This document shows, one piece after another, positions 11,820-22,389 of a stretch of DNA of 37,234 nucleotides. The translations under genes were made by a program, and so were the position numbers. Under the pieces are notes generated by a model. That model searched no databases, was not told the origin of the DNA, and saw nothing but the letters and a program-made list of their open reading frames with translations. The DNA is from Peptococcaceae bacterium (GTDB lineage Bacteria > Bacillota > Desulfitobacteriia > Desulfitobacteriales > Syntrophobotulaceae), in NCBI GenBank assembly GCA_012517475.1, contig JAAYUV010000005.1, positions 1 to 37,234 on the forward strand, read 5' to 3'. Position 1 is the stretch's first letter, and each line of letters starts with the position of its first letter.

Positions 11820-11856
11820 ATTTTCCGCCCGTAAATATACCAAAGGCAAATGATAA

Positions 11857-12013
11857 AAGGGATTGTCGCAAAACTACTTAAGAAGGTTTCCATAATGTAT
11901 AGCCGCTCTCGGCAGATTGCGCCATCCGCGGCGCAAACAGCCGCGCTCCGCATCCTGCTTCGCTTCACGCTGTCTATACATTACGGAAACTAGTCTTTTT
12001 GCAAGAGCCCCTT
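11857..12013. repeat. 157-bp palindromic MITE-like repeat, copy 2
   Basis: This copy matches 1609-1765 over its full length, in the same orientation, with scattered differences. The ends are AAGGGATTGTCGCAAAAC and the complement of AAGGGGCTCTTGCAAAAA. The central hairpin is partly degraded (GGCGCAAACAGCC on the right arm instead of GGCGCAATCTGCC). Its right edge abuts the end of the condensation-domain fragment on the minus strand. Confidence 0.85.
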
Positions 12014-12363
12014 TTCGTTGCATTAGCAAAATCGGCCGTTATATCATCCAATACCCGTATTACATCTGTCTCTTTGACATCAGAAGTATAATAATGGGCG
12101 ACAAGGCTCAAGACATTTCGATAGGTGCTTACCCCGAGCATGAACTGCATAATTTCGGTAATACGATGGAGAGTTGTTTCAAAAGATTCTCCTGAAAGGT
12201 TTTCCAGCAGCACATTGAAAGAAGAGGAAAGATTGACCGCCACGGATTGCTCTCCGTCCGGAATAAAAGGCCGGAGATCAACTGTTGCCATTACGGGTTT
12301 CGGATCATGATCCGGAGCGGCGGCCGTTCTGAACAGGGCTCTGAAGTACGGTTTGTTCCGCGA
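12014..12363 (-). pseudogene. C-terminal fragment of condensation-domain protein
   Basis: Read on the minus strand from about 12363, one frame gives RNKPYFRALFRTAAAP, then PKPVMATVDLRPFIPDGEQS and VAVNLSSSFNVLLENLSGES. This resembles the second half of condensation/acyltransferase proteins, where a VTVDLRRYLP-like strand is followed by NLSS. Everything upstream of it, including the HHxxxD half, is missing, and an in-frame stop lies directly before the fragment. The 3' end runs into repeat copy 2. The family assignment is from memory of the pattern and moderate; that it is broken is clear. Confidence 0.55.
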
Positions 12364-12392
12364 GGAAATCTCTTAGGCCTTCATCCGGATAA

Positions 12393-13837
12393 TTCGTTAT
12401 AAGAACGGGGCAATGTTCTAAAACGTGTAAGGGTTCTGTCCGGAAATTCTCACCCGTTGTCTTTTCGGAGATAGCAAAAGGTCTGACAAAAGGGGAGGAT
12501 TATAAACTCGATCAGAACGGGACAAACATCTATCTTACCGATCGGGGCTATGTCCGTTTCGAGAAATTGCTGGGAAAAGGGGATATTTTTTCCCCTGAGA
12601 ATCTGGAATCACTCGCTCTTCTTCACAGTGCCCTTCACGCTGAGGTGTTGCTAAAAAAGGATAGAGATTATATTGTTAAAGCGGGAAAAGTCAAGATTAT
12701 CGACGAATTCACAGGGCGAATTGCACAGAATCGCCATTGGCCGGACCATCTCCAAACAGCAGTGGAGGCCAAAGAGGGAATTACTCCCGACCATGAAGCG
12801 ACTGTTCTCGGATCGATCGCTCTCCAGCACTATCTTAGTCTCTATCCTATCATTGCGGGAATGACCGGAACGGCGAAAACCTCATCCGGAGAAATCCGGG
12901 AATTTTATAGGATTGAAGTGGTTGAAATTCCAACGAACAAACCCAGTGTAAGGATAGATCATCCCCATCGTATCTTTACAAATATCAAGGCAAAGGAAAA
13001 GGCCCTTATTCGGGAGGTAAAAAAAGCAAATCAAAAAGGGCAGCCTGTTTTGATCGGGACCCTAAGTGTTCAAGAGTCTGAACGGTTGGCACAAAAGCCG
13101 GAGGAGGAAGGGATCCGGTGCCGCGTCTTAAACGCCCGGAATGATGAAATGGAAGTAAAGATGATTGCCCGGGCGGGAGAACCGGAAGCAGTCACCGTTT
13201 CCACAAATATGGCCGGAAGGGGAGTCGATATCAGGCTGGGCGGGGAAAATGAACAGGAGAAGGCCGGGGTGGTCCGGTCCGGCGGTCTCTATGTGATAGG
13301 AACCGGCCTTCACGAAAGCCAGAGGATTGAGAATCAGCTTAGAGGGAGAGCAGGCCGTCAGGGTGACCCGGGAGAAACGAGATTCTTTATCAGACTTGAA
13401 GATGAGCTGGTTAAGAAGTATCAGCTTGATTCGCTCATACCGTTAAAATATTACCCGCCAAATCAGGAAGATCCGGTGGATAGTCCTGAAGTGTTAAAGG
13501 TGTTGGCCCATGGGCAGCGGATTATTGAAGGGTATTTAGGGGATTCAGGCGGCAGCAATGGAAATATTCTTCGATGATTGAACAGCAGCGGCGTATTGTT
13601 CATTCTCGCAGAAAAGATATTATTTACGACCGGATCACGTTGCATGTTTTACCGGTCAAATCACGGAAACGATATGATCGGCTCGTGTCTTTGCTTGGGG
13701 AAGAAAGATTACAGGCCATAGAGAAGGAGCTTACCCTGCACTCTCTCGATCAATGCTGGGCAGATTACTTGCAGGAAATGAGTGAGGTACGGGAAAGTAT
13801 TCATCTTGTCCTTCTTCAACCTGGACTTGCCTGGTAA
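12393..13837 (+). pseudogene. SecA-like translocase ATPase, truncated and frameshifted
   Basis: The frame carries the second half of the SecA motor: DYIVKAGKVKIIDEFTGRI, IIAGMTGTAKTSSGEIREFY, VVEIPTNKP, TNMAGRGVDIRLGG and NQLRGRAGRQGDPGETRFF. The N-terminal ATPase half with Walker A and DEAD box is absent; homology begins near 12393 in mid-domain. At about 13548-13555 a single-base loss shifts the frame. The correct reading continues as RRQQWKYSSMIEQQRRIVHS to 13837. It stops after RESIHLV, before the normal C-terminus. No start codon fits the 5' end; an internal TTG at 12567 is probably irrelevant. The divergence suggests an accessory SecA2-like protein rather than the housekeeping copy. It is non-functional. 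Confidence 0.88.
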
Positions 13838-14062: not shown

Positions 14063-14341
14063 TTGATAAATTGGGTGAAGCGATTGGACAAACACGGTGA
14101 TAATCATTTTGATGCCTCATCTGAAAACGTAAAGCTTTTAGAAGGATTTTACGATAAGCTCCGGCTTGTTGACCGGGGAATTATCCGGCTTCATGACAAT
14201 CTCATCGTAAGCAGGATTCCTATGAAAGATATTGCCGAGAACAGTGTCTCCCATATTATTTTGATTGAATCCAGAGAATCATTTATTTCTACCTTAACGT
14301 TATTTAAAGTGTGCTTGGCGTCTTTGCAATATCTATCTTAA
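14063..14341 (+). pseudogene. Frameshifted N-terminal sensor segment
   Basis: This frame encodes about 80 residues of a probable extracytoplasmic sensor region (ENVKLLEGFYDKLRLVDRGI, HDNLIVSRIPMKDIAENS) and the start of a membrane helix (FISTLTLFK). At 14309-14314 the helix continues in another frame as VLGVFAISILIMIIAGLFF, so two bases were gained or one lost. An open frame just upstream (about 13939-14099, ending GFLNIDKLGEAIGQT) may be an earlier, also shifted, part of the same gene. There is no signal peptide or recognisable start. I do not recognise the sensor family. Confidence 0.6.
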
Positions 14342-16647
14342 TTATGATTATCGCAGGTTTATTTTTTAGGAAACTCATTGTTTCACCGATTACTTATCTG
14401 GAAACCAATATAGAAAGTATGGAAAAAAATAATATCATAACCTATATTGAAGAGGTCGGACCAAAGGAAATCAAAAGGTTTATCCAGAAGTTTAATAAAA
14501 TAACTCAGACGATTCTGGATATCCATAAAAAAGAAAAAGAAAACCTGGAAGAGCTGACAAAGAGAGATTTTTTGACATCTTTATTAAACCACAGGGTTTT
14601 TTTTCAGGATTTTAACAAAGTGATAAACGAATACCGGCAGGCGGCCGTTCTTTTCTGTGATATTGACAGATTTAAACAGGTTAATAATCATTTTGGACAT
14701 ACCAAAGGGGATCAGGTATTAAAACAAAGCGCTATCCTTCTCAAAGAGACGGTAAACAATAAAGGGACCGTCTACCGGTATGGGGGGGAAAAGTTCACCG
14801 TACTCTTGCCGGACAGCGATAGGGAAGCGGCTCTGGAAATGGCAGAGATGATCCGAAAGGCGTTTTTGCGCAGCAAGAAAATCCAGGAATTTGCCAAGCA
14901 GCTTCCGATAACTGTGAGTATCGGAATCGCATTCTACCCTCAAGACGGGCAAGATCCTGAAACCGTGGTCAAAAAAGCTGATCAGGCGATGTTCTACTCA
15001 AAAAGGTGTGGCAGAGATCAATGCCGTATCTTTACCGAAGAAATTGAAAAGAGTTTGGAACAGAACCATAAAGAATCTATCAGGAAAGAAATATTAATAG
15101 AATCCGTTCTTGCCCTCGCTGAGGCGGTAGATGCCAAAGATAACTATACGGGGGAACACTCCAAGAAAATTGTGGAATTATCATTAGCGATTGCCGAAAA
15201 GATCGGACTTCAGGAAAAAGAGAAAAATAATTTGAGAATCGGTGCATTGCTTCACGATTGCGGGAAAATAGGAATACCGGATTACATCATTAAGAAGTCT
15301 GAAACACTGACAGACGAAGAGTTTGAGATGATAAAAAATCACACTTTACTTGGAACAAATATTATCAGACATATTACCAATGAGCCGGAAATTATCGCCG
15401 CGGTTAAAAACCATCATGAAAGATGGGATGGAAAAGGATATCCGGACGGACTGGAAGGGAATGCAATTCCTCTCTTTGCCAGAATAGTGTCTTTGGCGGA
15501 TTCTTACCACGCCATGATCTCAGACCGGCCTTATCGTAGCGCGTTAACCAAAGAGGAGGCTATTCAATTGAAAAAGAACAAGCCTTATTTTCCCAGGATA
15601 GTACGAGAAATTCCCTTAACTGACAGTATAAAACAAGGGGTAAGTTCCTATGGATTTTGGGATGATGCTTACCAGGCGATGCAGGCCAATGATCTGGAAT
15701 GGATAAATCGACAGATGGTTGAAGTGGCAAGCGAAGACTATAAGTTGGATTTTGTTGAGGTATGCGATCTCTCCGGCCGGATTGTTGCATTCTATGGGGA
15801 AGAGAGTTTTGGAAATACGCTGTCGGGGCATCCATTATTACGAAAAATAAGCCAGGGAGAAGACAAAATTATTAATGGTTTATATAATTCTTCCAAAGGT
15901 CTCACCTTTGTAGCGGTAGGGAAGATTCTGAAGAACAACGGCGAAGGAGAACCCGTAGGTTATCTGATTTTTGGCAAGAGTATTACTGCGGATCACTTGA
16001 TGCAGGTTAAACAGCTGACCGGGGCGGATGTATCAATCTATTCCCTGAACGGACAGACAATATTAACCACGGATAGTGAACTCAATAAAGCGGCTGCGAA
16101 GGTAAACAAAGCAGAAATTGACAGGATAAAAAGCAATGGGTCCAGCTATCTTACAACCTTTACACCTCTGACGGACATTAATGGTGTCGAGGTTGCCGAG
16201 CAGGGGACAGTGATTAAAGTTGTAGCCAGCGATAAAGCAAAAAATAAATTGTTATTTACCATTGTGACAATTATATTTGGCTGTTTCATTGTGGCTTTTG
16301 CCGGGGGATTAATCATCGCAGGGTATTTGGTAAAACCTTTGGGGGTCATATCACGACTCCTGGAACATATCGGAAAAGGGGATTTTACGCACAAATACGA
16401 GAAAGATTTCAAGGGTGAGATCGGAGATATGGTCAGGGCCTATAATCACATGGTAGATAACCTCAGCCATTTAATCAAAGTAACGAAAGAAAATGCGGGG
16501 AGAGTGGTTAGCTCCCTGGAGGAAGTCCTCGTCAAAACCGATTCCCTGTCGGAAGCGAGCAAAGAAATACAAAGCGGGATAGCTGAAGTGGCAGCATCGT
16601 CCGAATCCGTTGGCGGAGGGGTCTGCTCAATCTGCCAGGGATATTAA
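14311..16647 (+). CDS. Chimeric GGDEF / HD-GYP / CHASE4-HAMP signalling protein (broken)
   Basis: The 778-codon frame reads: membrane helix (1-27), linker helix, GGDEF domain (about 85-245), HD-GYP domain (about 258-412), CHASE4-like sensor (about 420-650, with GFWDDAYQAMQANDLEWI), membrane helix (about 655-680), HAMP, and the start of a chemoreceptor signalling helix. The GGDEF motif is GGEKF (158-162), with Lys replacing the second acidic residue, so cyclase activity is doubtful. HD-GYP keeps H315-D316 and HHERWDGKGYP (368-378) but is cut after YRSALTKEEA, losing its last helices. A normal protein would not place an extracellular CHASE4 domain straight after cytoplasmic HD-GYP with no membrane helix between them. 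It is therefore best explained as an in-frame fusion of two genes by deletion. The 5' end is frameshifted from its sensor and the 3' end from the rest of the receptor. A GAGGAGG followed by TTG near 15569 could allow a separate start. Confidence 0.75.
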   Translation: MLGVFAISILIMIIAGLFFRKLIVSPITYLETNIESMEKNNIITYIEEVGPKEIKRFIQKFNKITQTILDIHKKEKENLEELTKRDFLTSLLNHRVFFQDFNKVINEYRQAAVLFCDIDRFKQVNNHFGHTKGDQVLKQSAILLKETVNNKGTVYRYGGEKFTVLLPDSDREAALEMAEMIRKAFLRSKKIQEFAKQLPITVSIGIAFYPQDGQDPETVVKKADQAMFYSKRCGRDQCRIFTEEIEKSLEQNHKESIRKEILIESVLALAEAVDAKDNYTGEHSKKIVELSLAIAEKIGLQEKEKNNLRIGALLHDCGKIGIPDYIIKKSETLTDEEFEMIKNHTLLGTNIIRHITNEPEIIAAVKNHHERWDGKGYPDGLEGNAIPLFARIVSLADSYHAMISDRPYRSALTKEEAIQLKKNKPYFPRIVREIPLTDSIKQGVSSYGFWDDAYQAMQANDLEWINRQMVEVASEDYKLDFVEVCDLSGRIVAFYGEESFGNTLSGHPLLRKISQGEDKIINGLYNSSKGLTFVAVGKILKNNGEGEPVGYLIFGKSITADHLMQVKQLTGADVSIYSLNGQTILTTDSELNKAAAKVNKAEIDRIKSNGSSYLTTFTPLTDINGVEVAEQGTVIKVVASDKAKNKLLFTIVTIIFGCFIVAFAGGLIIAGYLVKPLGVISRLLEHIGKGDFTHKYEKDFKGEIGDMVRAYNHMVDNLSHLIKVTKENAGRVVSSLEEVLVKTDSLSEASKEIQSGIAEVAASSESVGGGVCSICQGY

Positions 16648-17035
16648 AGTACTTATTGAAGAAATCAGGCGGGATACGGATGCAGCGGTTACTTCGATGA
16701 TAGAACAATCAAGTATTATTAATTCAGGAGCGAGTCAGGTTGACGAAGCCGGCAGTATTTTTATGAAGATTCAATCGGCCTTTTCCAAGGTAACAACAAA
16801 GGTGGAGGGCATTTCCACTCAGACGGAAGAGCTTGCCCAACAAAGTGAGAATGCGGTTCAAGAAGTTGAGACGGCCAAAAATGATACCGAACTGGTAAAA
16901 GACCGGGCTAAAATGATTACGAAAGTTGCCACAGCTCAAATGGAAGTAATGGAAGAAACAGCCCGGTTTGTCAGAGAATTAAGTGCGTTGGCTATTAAGA
17001 TGGGAGAATTAGCAGCAAGGTTTAAGGTAAACTAA
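16610..17035 (+). pseudogene. C-terminal half of methyl-accepting chemotaxis signalling domain
   Basis: This frame continues the receptor after a frameshift, starting LAEGSAQSARDIKVLIEEIR, the usual descending helix of MCP signalling domains, and ending KMGELAARFKVN, the normal C-terminus. The preceding frame ends in the ascending helix (SGIAEVAASSESV). The conserved hairpin tip that contacts CheA/CheW (normally IEAARAGE...FAVVAEEVR) is missing between them. The domain therefore could not signal even if the frame were restored. Confidence 0.75.
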
Positions 17036-17056: not shown

Positions 17057-18265
17057 ATGAAAGTTTTATATTATCAGTGCGCAAGCGGTATAAGCGGGGA
17101 TATGAATCTGGGTGCTATGCTGGATTTAGGGATAGACCCGGAGTATTTGCTTAAGGAACTTAGCTTTCTGGGTTTGGGAGAAGAATATGAAATCAAAGTC
17201 CGGAGGGAAACAAGAAAAGGAATAGCAGGAACCAGATGTGAAGTTTGCCTTAAGGATCATGGAACAAACCATCAGGGGAAACACCAGCACCGGACAATAA
17301 GGGATATCGAGAAAATTATTGGAGAAAGCCAATTATCCGAAAGCATTAAAAACAGAAGCCTCAGGATGTTTCATCTGCTTGCAGATGCAGAAGCGCATGT
17401 TCATGGAATTGACCGAAATCAGGTCCACTTTCATGAGGTGGGTGCAACCGATGCCATTGTAGATATTGTGGGGACAGCCATTTGTTTGGAATACCTTCAG
17501 GTGGACAAAGTGGTCGCTTCTACGGTGGAACTAGGAGGAGGCTTCGTGAGCTGTGAACATGGATTGCTTCCTGTTCCGGCCCCTGCGGTATTGGAATTAC
17601 TAAAAGGGATACCGGTCAGTACAGGAAGGGTTGAACATGAAACAACCACCCCGACAGGGGCAGTTATATTGGTTGCTAACGCAGATGAATTTACGGATCA
17701 AATGAATTTACTTATTAATAAAGTAGGATATGGGGTAGGAAAAAAGGATTTTACTATTCCCAATGTCTTAAGGATTCTTCTGGGAACTCAGATCCCTAAA
17801 AATGAAGGAAAGGGTTCTGGCTTAACCGCAGATGCTGTTCAATATATGATTGAAACCAACATTGATGATATGAACCCGGAATTCTATGAACTGGCTGAAG
17901 AAAGATTGTTCGGGGCCGGAGCTCTGGACGTGTTTAAAACTCCCATTATTATGAAAAAAAGCCGGCCGGGGATAAAACTAAGCATCCTGACGGCAAAAGA
18001 AAATCTTGCAGCCGTAGAAGAAATTCTTTTGAGGGATACCAGCGCAATTGGGTTAAGAAAGTATTGTGTAGAGAAAGTGATCCTTCCCAGAACGATGAGG
18101 ACTGTCAAAACCAAATACGGTCCTGTTTCGATCAAAACGAGTTATTTGGAAGGAAAGAAAATAAAAGAAAAACCGGAGTATCATGATTGCAGGAGAATTG
18201 CCATAGAGAATAATCTCTCGCTTACAGAGGTCTATAAGGAAGTAGGAAAATACCTGGAAGAATGA
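17057..18265 (+). CDS. larC: Nickel-pincer cofactor biosynthesis protein LarC
   Basis: The 402-residue protein starts MKVLYYQCASGISGDMNLGA, the signature of LarC (formerly DUF111), the CTP-dependent enzyme that inserts nickel into the pincer nucleotide cofactor of lactate racemase and related LarA enzymes. A His-rich loop, DHGTNHQGKHQH, near residue 75 is typical. VHFHEVGATDAIVDIVG and the C-terminal METNIDDMNPEFYELAEERL region are intact, so both LarC1 and LarC2 parts are in one frame. LarB, LarE and LarA are not in this window. GAGGGG precedes the ATG. It lies 21 bases after the broken chemoreceptor and has no evident operon partner. Confidence 0.92.
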   Translation: MKVLYYQCASGISGDMNLGAMLDLGIDPEYLLKELSFLGLGEEYEIKVRRETRKGIAGTRCEVCLKDHGTNHQGKHQHRTIRDIEKIIGESQLSESIKNRSLRMFHLLADAEAHVHGIDRNQVHFHEVGATDAIVDIVGTAICLEYLQVDKVVASTVELGGGFVSCEHGLLPVPAPAVLELLKGIPVSTGRVEHETTTPTGAVILVANADEFTDQMNLLINKVGYGVGKKDFTIPNVLRILLGTQIPKNEGKGSGLTADAVQYMIETNIDDMNPEFYELAEERLFGAGALDVFKTPIIMKKSRPGIKLSILTAKENLAAVEEILLRDTSAIGLRKYCVEKVILPRTMRTVKTKYGPVSIKTSYLEGKKIKEKPEYHDCRRIAIENNLSLTEVYKEVGKYLEE

Positions 18266-20781: not shown

Positions 20782-22389
20782 TCATTGAGGCATGGATTTC
20801 ATTCTTTGCAGTAGCAAATGATATCTTTCATCCAGGGCCTTGTACTCGGATGGGATAATCATGGGATCGGAAAGTCTGCCTATAATTTCAGACAGTTCAT
20901 TTTGAATAAGAAGAAGCTCTTCCTGCCGTATATGCCCAGATCTTCTTTCCCGCTGCTCAAGTTCATCCAAATAATCCGAATATCCACCCTCAAAAGTGTG
21001 GAGCTGCTTGTCTCGGAAGGTGATGATCCGGTCCGCGGTGTTCTCTAAAAACCTTCGGTCATGGGAGACAAAAAGAATAGTCCCGGGATATTCATGGATG
21101 AGTTTATCCAGTGCTTCTCTGGAGCGAAGATCCAAAAAATTATCCGGTTCATCCAAAAGCAGAAGATTAGGACCTTCGGCAAGAATCTTAGCCAAAGTGG
21201 CTTTAACAATTTCGCCCCCGCTTAATAATCCGATGTTTTTATGGACACTGTCTCCCTTAAAGTTGAGCCGGCTGAGGATAATTCGGATTCCGGCCTCACT
21301 TAAGAGGCTTTTTTCACGGACATTTTGCAAAATGGTTTTTTCTTTATCCAGGATGTCAAGTTTTTGGCTAAAGTACCCCGGGATCAGACCGTTGGCGAAA
21401 GTGACTGCGGGATCGCCCGAAAACAGCGCCTTTAACAAGGTAGTCTTTCCCGTACCGTTTTCTCCGAGTAAAGCGGTTTTACTTCCGGTCGGCAAATGAA
21501 AATCCGACTTGTTAAGCAAAAGTTTATTTCTTGTTCTGAGTGTGAGTTCATGTACCTTCAGCGCACTTTTTCCTGTAATTTTCATGCAGGTCTGAAAATA
21601 TATCCGGATTTCCGGTTCGGAAACAGGCTTTTCTTTTACCTCCAATTTCTCCAGGCGGGTTTCCAGAGAATTGACCGATTGATGCAGTTTCTTTTGGATT
21701 TCTCCCGTACTCCTCTTATGGAGACGGGCTTCCGAATTGCCCATTCTTTTGGGGGTTTTGCGCAGCTGTTTTACGTTCTGCCTGCGTTCTTGAATTCTTG
21801 AGACAAGGCGTTCCCGTTCAGCCTGGTATTCGCTGTATTCCTTGTACGCGTTGATCCGTTCAAGCTCCTTGATCTTTTTATATTCGGCATAATTTCCGCT
21901 GTAAATATGAAATTGACCGTTGTCGATTTCCATGATTGTTGTGCAAAGACGATCAAGCAGTGTCCGGTCATGAGAGATAAGAAGAAGGGCTCCCGGGAAT
22001 GACGCCAATTTCTCTTCCACAAGTTGTATTCCGTTTAGATCCATACTGGTAGTTGGTTCATCGGCAAGAAGCAATCCGCAGTTTTTCTCCAGAGCGGTAA
22101 ACAGTTTTAAACGGCTTAGTTCACCTCCGCTCAGGTAGCTTGTTTTGGAACGTGCATCATAGTCTTGGATATCCAGTTGTTTCATATACGATAAGGAGGT
22201 GCGAAGTTCGACCTTCCCCTCATCAGGATGTATTTCCTGAGCCAGGATACCCATTAATGTTGATTTCCCGCAGCCATTGATTCCGACTAAGCCGATACGG
22301 TCCTGGTCATAAATCTTAAGGTCATCGATTTTAAAAAGAAGACGTTCGCCATAACTCTTTACAATGTTTTGGGCATGCAAGATAAGCAT
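20782..22389 (-). CDS. ABC-F ATPase, ribosomal-protection type
   Basis: The 535-residue cytosolic protein has two ABC ATPase domains and no membrane segments. Domain 1 has Walker A GINGCGKST, signature LSGGELSRLK and Walker B-region LLADEPTTSMD. Domain 2 has GENGTGKTT, LSGGEIVKA and LLLLDEPDNFLD. The charged linker between them (RIQERRQNVKQLRKTPKRMG) is the arm that enters the ribosomal exit-site region in antibiotic-resistance ABC-F proteins (Vga/Lsa/VmlR group). The DEPTTSMD sequence and size fit this group better than housekeeping EttA. The likely role is protection from drugs such as lincosamides, streptogramin A or pleuromutilins; the drug spectrum is not readable. Its start codon directly follows a terminator-like hairpin. 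Confidence 0.85.
   Translation of the reverse strand: MLILHAQNIVKSYGERLLFKIDDLKIYDQDRIGLVGINGCGKSTLMGILAQEIHPDEGKVELRTSLSYMKQLDIQDYDARSKTSYLSGGELSRLKLFTALEKNCGLLLADEPTTSMDLNGIQLVEEKLASFPGALLLISHDRTLLDRLCTTIMEIDNGQFHIYSGNYAEYKKIKELERINAYKEYSEYQAERERLVSRIQERRQNVKQLRKTPKRMGNSEARLHKRSTGEIQKKLHQSVNSLETRLEKLEVKEKPVSEPEIRIYFQTCMKITGKSALKVHELTLRTRNKLLLNKSDFHLPTGSKTALLGENGTGKTTLLKALFSGDPAVTFANGLIPGYFSQKLDILDKEKTILQNVREKSLLSEAGIRIILSRLNFKGDSVHKNIGLLSGGEIVKATLAKILAEGPNLLLLDEPDNFLDLRSREALDKLIHEYPGTILFVSHDRRFLENTADRIITFRDKQLHTFEGGYSDYLDELEQRERRSGHIRQEELLLIQNELSEIIGRLSDPMIIPSEYKALDERYHLLLQRMKSMPQ

Follow-up and report, generated by a model that had tools for sequence, protein, structure and literature searches.

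Domain content of the chimeric open frame

The window, i.e. the whole stretch of 37,234 nt that was analysed, belongs to a 3.68-Mb draft genome of a Peptococcaceae bacterium (115 contigs, completeness 98.25, contamination 3.78). The open reading frame list contains a 778-codon frame at 14311-16647 (+) with start codon GTG. Pfam search of this frame revealed the domain order GGDEF, HD-GYP (HD_5), CHASE4, HAMP. An overlapping frame at 16610-17035 encodes an MCP signalling domain from about its midpoint onwards (Pfam profile positions 80-169 of 172, E 4.1e-10). The stretch is present as a single copy in the genome; six other DNA matches were found, all of them short and 67-89% identical. Coordinates of the domains, of the remnants assigned to two parent genes (parent 1, GGDEF-HD-GYP; parent 2, CHASE4-HAMP-MCP), and of the adjoining genes are listed in Table 1.

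Direct reading of the HD-GYP part showed the presence of HDCGK and HHERWDGKGYPDG, the HD and GYP motifs of the domain. The HD_5 match covers profile positions 4-156 of 170, and the last 14 positions are absent from the window. The GGDEF signature of diguanylate cyclases is GG[DE]EF; the window has GGEKF, and the Glu that is changed is identical in 19 of the 19 homologues compared.

Table 1. Features of the larC-upstream region, with positions in the window or residues of the 778-codon frame
Feature	Position	Strand	Basis
secA2-type gene relic	12498-13816	+	residues 280-719 of 787-residue G012 frame, two frames
Sensor end of parent 1, up to membrane	14123-14308	+	G123 residues 230-292, 29% identity, E 2e-6
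Frameshift inside parent 1	14308-14329	+	comparison with G123
Parent 1 main block: TM end, HAMP-like linker, GGDEF, HD-GYP	14329-15567	+	G123 residues 301-718, 47% identity
GGDEF	residues 84-236 of 778-codon frame		Pfam E 3.9e-41
HD_5 (HD-GYP)	residues 270-419 of 778-codon frame		Pfam E 7.9e-37
Parent 1/parent 2 junction, out of frame, ~15565	15561-15579	+	overlapping alignments
First surviving MCP piece	15567-15617	+	G021 residues 37-53; different frame from 778-codon frame
Net 8-nt deletion, approximate place	15600-15625	+	anchor spacing 82 vs 90 nt
CHASE4, TM2, HAMP and next helix of parent 2	15616-16608	+	G021 residues 56-385, 54% identity
CHASE4	residues 438-577 of 778-codon frame		Pfam E 3.4e-22
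HAMP	residues 669-719 of 778-codon frame		Pfam E 1e-11
Site of MCP loss plus frameshift	16608-16610	+	G021 residues 386-507 (122 codons) absent
C-terminal MCP signalling part	16610-17035	+	G021 residues 508-647, 43% identity, next frame
larC, uninterrupted, syntenic anchor	17057-18265	+	directly downstream of MCP in G021

The two parent genes

When two candidates were scored in each of 398 genomes of the phylum, the best match to the whole frame besides the window was a 737-residue frame in genome G123, with 47% identity over open-frame residues 5-424. The G123 frame is uninterrupted and encodes CHASE4, HAMP, GGDEF and HD-GYP in that order in Pfam, suggesting that parent 1 probably also carried a CHASE4 sensor. 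TM helix, HAMP-like linker, GGDEF and HD-GYP follow one another in the window as in the G123 protein; however, the C-terminal end and the greater part of the CHASE4 sensor are absent from the window, which has a frameshift before the TM helix as well as the altered signature. The sensor remnant is read in another frame than the rest of parent 1, and alignment of the window to the G123 protein revealed no counterpart of G123 residues 1-229 upstream of 14123. With the N-terminal fragment 14063-14338 as query, a search of 72 other genomes from the order gave no homologue at E ≤ 0.01; the fragment is explained by the G123 protein, which was itself found in the phylum via the whole frame. At the other end, the alignment to G123 residue 718 extends as far as 15579, and 19-24 residues fewer than in G123 are left (719-737 absent). 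The HD-GYP domain is thus incomplete and lies in a broken gene, with its end lost and a frameshift at ~14308. The initial annotation had placed the cut after the GYP motif, and this agrees with the comparison.

The nearest homologue of parent 2 was an uninterrupted 648-aa CHASE4-HAMP-MCP protein in G021, a genome of the same family as the window. In G021, this gene immediately precedes larC and shares its strand, and the MCP remnant of the window lies at the matching place. The two resemble each other in sequence over both aligned blocks (identities in Table 1; the second block spans 16610-17029) and in sharing larC as downstream neighbour, whereas the window lacks G021 residues 1-36 and 386-507 and has two frame changes. 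Residues 1-36 hold the first TM helix (TM helices were judged by eye). CHASE4 and the pre-HAMP region are kept, but no longer as a sensor between two TM helices; because residues 1-36 are lost, CHASE4 would be left without its first membrane helix. The topology argument of the initial annotation, with the sensor placed in the cytoplasm if the frame is expressed, would follow from this loss. The lost residues 386-507 include the MCP signalling tip, which is the part contacting CheA and CheW, and what remains of the signalling domain after them is in another frame.

At E ≤ 0.001, the CHASE4-HAMP part had a match in 51 of 73 genomes of the order, and strong matches besides the window (E 2e-95 to 6e-36) were present in six of the 73. 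In one of these six, G037, from another genus of the order, the CHASE4-MCP homologue (L066, 5556-7512) is split across two overlapping frames, so this gene may be broken as well. A contig search with the CHASE4-HAMP part gave a lone weak locus (19% identity) in a Selenomonadaceae MAG and was of no use.

The junction and a compensating deletion

Because the parent 1 and parent 2 alignments overlap, the exact junction base is uncertain. The position of ~15570 in the initial annotation was right to within a few bases; its description of the join as in-frame was wrong. Two MCP homologues (L023 and L054) match 15567-15617 in a frame that is not the open one. These matches are weak alone (E 0.55 and 0.18, respectively), but their place is right. 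Each of the three frames of 15567-15617 was given a score for its agreement with the 17 residues at the homologous positions in seven MCPs (L023-L027, L054, and L090). The other frame scored 36.1, the open frame -2.9, and the third frame -20.0. Of 74,366 51-nt segments on both strands of the window, a single one, the piece itself, reached 36.1, and 2,996 reached -2.9, i.e. the open-frame score is noise-like. Spacing from the piece to the conserved YGFW (YAFW in L054) is 90 nt in all seven MCP homologues and 82 nt in the window. These findings indicate that the MCP lost its frame at the join and regained it through a net 8-nt deletion bounded by 15567 and 15649. From ~residue 420 on, some 16 residues encoded by the open frame stem from MCP DNA read in the wrong frame.

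No repeats of at least 14 nt that might have caused the join were present at the junction, and a tandem-repeat scan of the sequence found nothing. Positions 15568-15579 fit both parent alignments. The parents may have shared a short sequence here.

Search for the same architecture in other genomes

The whole 778-residue sequence was used as query against 82 genomes of the class (E ≤ 1e-60, up to 12 candidates per genome) and 398 genomes of the phylum (E ≤ 1e-65, two candidates per genome). With the window excluded, none of the 16 matches listed for the class spanned the junction, and none of the 61 listed for the phylum had CHASE4 after HD-GYP; 60 of the latter aligned to the GGDEF-HD-GYP part and the remaining one (G224) to the CHASE4-MCP part. 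In both searches the boundary was sharp: GGDEF-HD-GYP matches stopped at residues 415-434, except for four that reached 441-459, and CHASE4-MCP matches started at residues 436-443. These four, all among the 60 phylum matches, pass residue 436 (to 441, 446, 451, and 459) and run 5-23 residues beyond the CHASE4 start. Their alignments stop at 743/759, 966/1018, 842/844, and 675/714 of their own proteins, leaving (in ascending order) 2, 16, 39, and 52 residues, which is too short for a CHASE4 domain. The results apply to the sampled genomes and to matches above the cut-offs, and a spanning protein that scores lower or belongs to other genomes may exist.

Constraint on the surviving blocks

No in-frame stops occur in the surviving blocks. 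Departures from invariant columns, defined as columns constant among the other sequences of an alignment, were counted for each block. In GGDEF-HD-GYP (19 homologues), the window retains 48 of 49 columns and differs at one, through the E to K change of the GGDEF signature; the others depart at 0-4. Corresponding values for the CHASE4-HAMP block are 3/54 in the window and 0-10 in the others. In the MCP C-terminal block, for which there are three sequences only, the window departs at 17/48 and the others at 22/53 and 29/60. In the secA2 relic (four sequences), the window has 38/187 and the others from 0 up to 35/184 (G028). The control gene larC gave 4/141 in the window and 0-12 in the others. 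Point changes are not in excess; point substitutions thus give no sign of lost constraint. The evidence for a putative pseudogene consists of deletions and frameshifts, not of point changes, and the decay looks recent.

Gene content upstream of larC in relatives

The secA2 relic shows 56-58% identity to the G012 frame. Both of its ends are gone, and the frame changes at ~13545. Homologous secA2 frames without interruption are found in G012, G023, and G028, and the host genome has an uninterrupted secA elsewhere, on C50.

The region upstream of larC was examined in 15 of the 23 family relatives that have a larC match; the upstream sequence was short in G003, G005, and G015. Of these relatives, only G021 has a full MCP gene upstream of larC. 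G012 and G023 have the uninterrupted secA2 frame upstream of larC, with a 39-nt MCP scrap between them that is 95% (G012) or 92% (G023) identical to the G021 MCP gene. No MCP scrap was found in the 340-410 nt before larC in G002 and G017, which belong to the same genus as G012 and G023. The one further genome from the window's genus in the set is G001; there ygiQ and larC are parted only by a short opposite-strand frame, and no secA2, MCP, or parent 1 genes were found between them. G005 has ygiQ, a small PAS protein gene, and larC close together, and G010 has several other genes between ygiQ and larC. In G007, larC is immediately preceded by a different GGDEF-HD-GYP gene (L122, 6725-8848; 708-residue frame, 32% identity), and 518-aa GGDEF frames are found at this position in G006 (L124, 6836-8389) and G014 (L123, 6898-8451). 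In G021, a GGDEF frame is located ~3.3 kb upstream of the MCP gene (27% identity, GGDEF part only). The slot before larC therefore varies a good deal and has repeatedly held c-di-GMP genes (G006, G007, and G014). Comparison of G012, G021, G023, and the window suggests that an ancestor had secA2 and the MCP gene in this slot.

A check for the two parent genes side by side in relatives had been proposed in the initial annotation. A close pair of parent 1 and parent 2 homologues was not present at the loci examined, namely the MCP homologue loci (L061, L063-L068, and L090), the G123 gene (L089), and larC of the 15 family relatives, with less than 1 kb to the contig end on the relevant side at L063, L068, and L089. 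At these loci no close parent 1 homologue was seen beside an MCP gene, and neither the G021 MCP gene nor the G123 CHASE4-GGDEF-HD-GYP gene adjoins a homologue of the other. In G412, a HAMP-MCP frame adjoins a GGDEF-HD-GYP protein but lies upstream of it, in the opposite order. The GGDEF genes by larC in G006, G007, and G014 and near the G021 MCP gene favour neighbouring parents only in a general way.

Other features of the window

An interspersed element of ~155 nt has copies at 11855-12010 and 1601-1765, one of which borders the block of gene debris. Inverted arms of 17 nt lie at 11886-11902 and 11974-11990 (94% complementary), and outer inverted ends are visible in a three-copy alignment. 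The element has 45 matches in the host genome, itself and partial ones counted. A search of 25 genomes gave matches in nine, the window's own among them, and in two of the nine the match is only 26-27 nt. As DNA it folds better than 200 of 200 shuffles (z -3.1), and no Rfam family matches it at the gathering score. The element resembles a MITE. Between this element, which it slightly overlaps, and the secA2 relic is a 131-codon open stretch at 11977-12369 (-) that has no Pfam match at E ≤ 0.01 and is perhaps another remnant.

Elsewhere in the window, 36065-36176 matches the Rfam group II intron family D1-D4-6 (60.3 bits; gathering score 49). An ABC-F protein is encoded at 20782-22389 (-); it scores 461.8 against an NCBIfam cut-off of 380 for the ribosomal protection-like ABC-F family and is below the NCBIfam cut-offs for Vga and CplR.

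Origin of the open frame

Relative to unbroken homologues, both parts of the 778-codon frame carry frameshifts and truncations. With a probability of about 95%, we consider the feature to be a fused pseudogene, in which two sensor genes upstream of larC decayed by deletion and a single open frame was kept by the 8-nt deletion. At the outset, larC would have been preceded by a CHASE4-TM-HAMP-GGDEF-HD-GYP gene and a CHASE4-TM-HAMP-MCP gene, both decaying by deletion. One deletion would have taken the 3′ end of the first gene together with the 5′ end of the second, giving an out-of-frame join. The separate net 8-nt deletion ~50 bases downstream would then have brought the MCP into the HD-GYP frame, producing the 778 codons. 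The MCP part contacting CheA and CheW would have disappeared in another event, in which 122 codons were lost and the frame was shifted. The lesions themselves are evident from comparison with uninterrupted homologues; their order, the parents having been neighbours, and the lack of a functional product are what we infer from them. Two observations speak against a pseudogene: the surviving blocks have neither in-frame stops nor a surplus of point changes, and the parents were side by side at none of the loci examined. Bacterial pseudogenes fused through deletion between genes are a general phenomenon. The feature resembles these in that the cut 3′ end of one gene is joined to the cut 5′ end of another and that both genes carry additional lesions. 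It differs in that a compensating deletion leaves one frame open across both parts, and debris therefore looks like one gene.

The same frame might be read as a functional new membrane protein, an HD-GYP phosphodiesterase tethered to the CHASE4-TM-HAMP module at the C-terminus, derived from a chemoreceptor, whose frame was restored under selection by the 8-nt deletion. The 778 codons without a stop, the conserved HD-GYP residues (48 of 49 invariant columns across GGDEF-HD-GYP), and the fact that the deletion did restore the frame are consistent with this. We consider it very improbable, however, because no spanning homologue occurs among the listed matches, the CHASE4 module has lost its first 36 residues including TM1, the MCP tip is gone, parent 1 has its upstream frame interrupted at ~14308, and the block adjoins another relic gene, secA2. 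The product would combine a truncated HD-GYP with a CHASE4 lacking the first membrane helix, would have no MCP tip, and is unlikely to have a function. Even less probable is an assembly or sequencing artefact that joined two genes. The draft state of the genome, with its 115 contigs and the completeness and contamination given above, leaves some room for such an error, but four separate lesions lie within 2.3 kb, two of them with large losses, next to an uninterrupted larC; neither parent has a closely similar second copy in the genome, and no repeat of at least 14 nt is found at the junction.

A chimera made by deletion is also what the initial annotation had described. The Pfam search bore out a GGDEF-HD-GYP protein joined to the CHASE4-HAMP part of an MCP protein in one 778-codon frame, and comparison with the uninterrupted G123 and G021 homologues supports the view that the frame hides a chimera made by deletion. 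The HD-GYP-CHASE4 order, which it had proposed to look for in other species, was seen in none of the class and phylum matches listed other than the window itself, and its expectation that annotation could misread the frame as a new architecture is supported. The damage extends beyond that description to the 122-codon MCP loss, the frameshift at ~14308 with loss of most of parent 1's own CHASE4 sensor, and the secA2 relic.

The locus is most likely a case of ordinary gene decay and reveals no new system. It illustrates how, through two lesions that compensate each other, the remains of genes can come to form a long open frame rich in domains, which automatic annotation could call a new architecture. 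The region upstream of larC has changed repeatedly within one family, and pieces of secA2 and the MCP gene survive unequally among its species.
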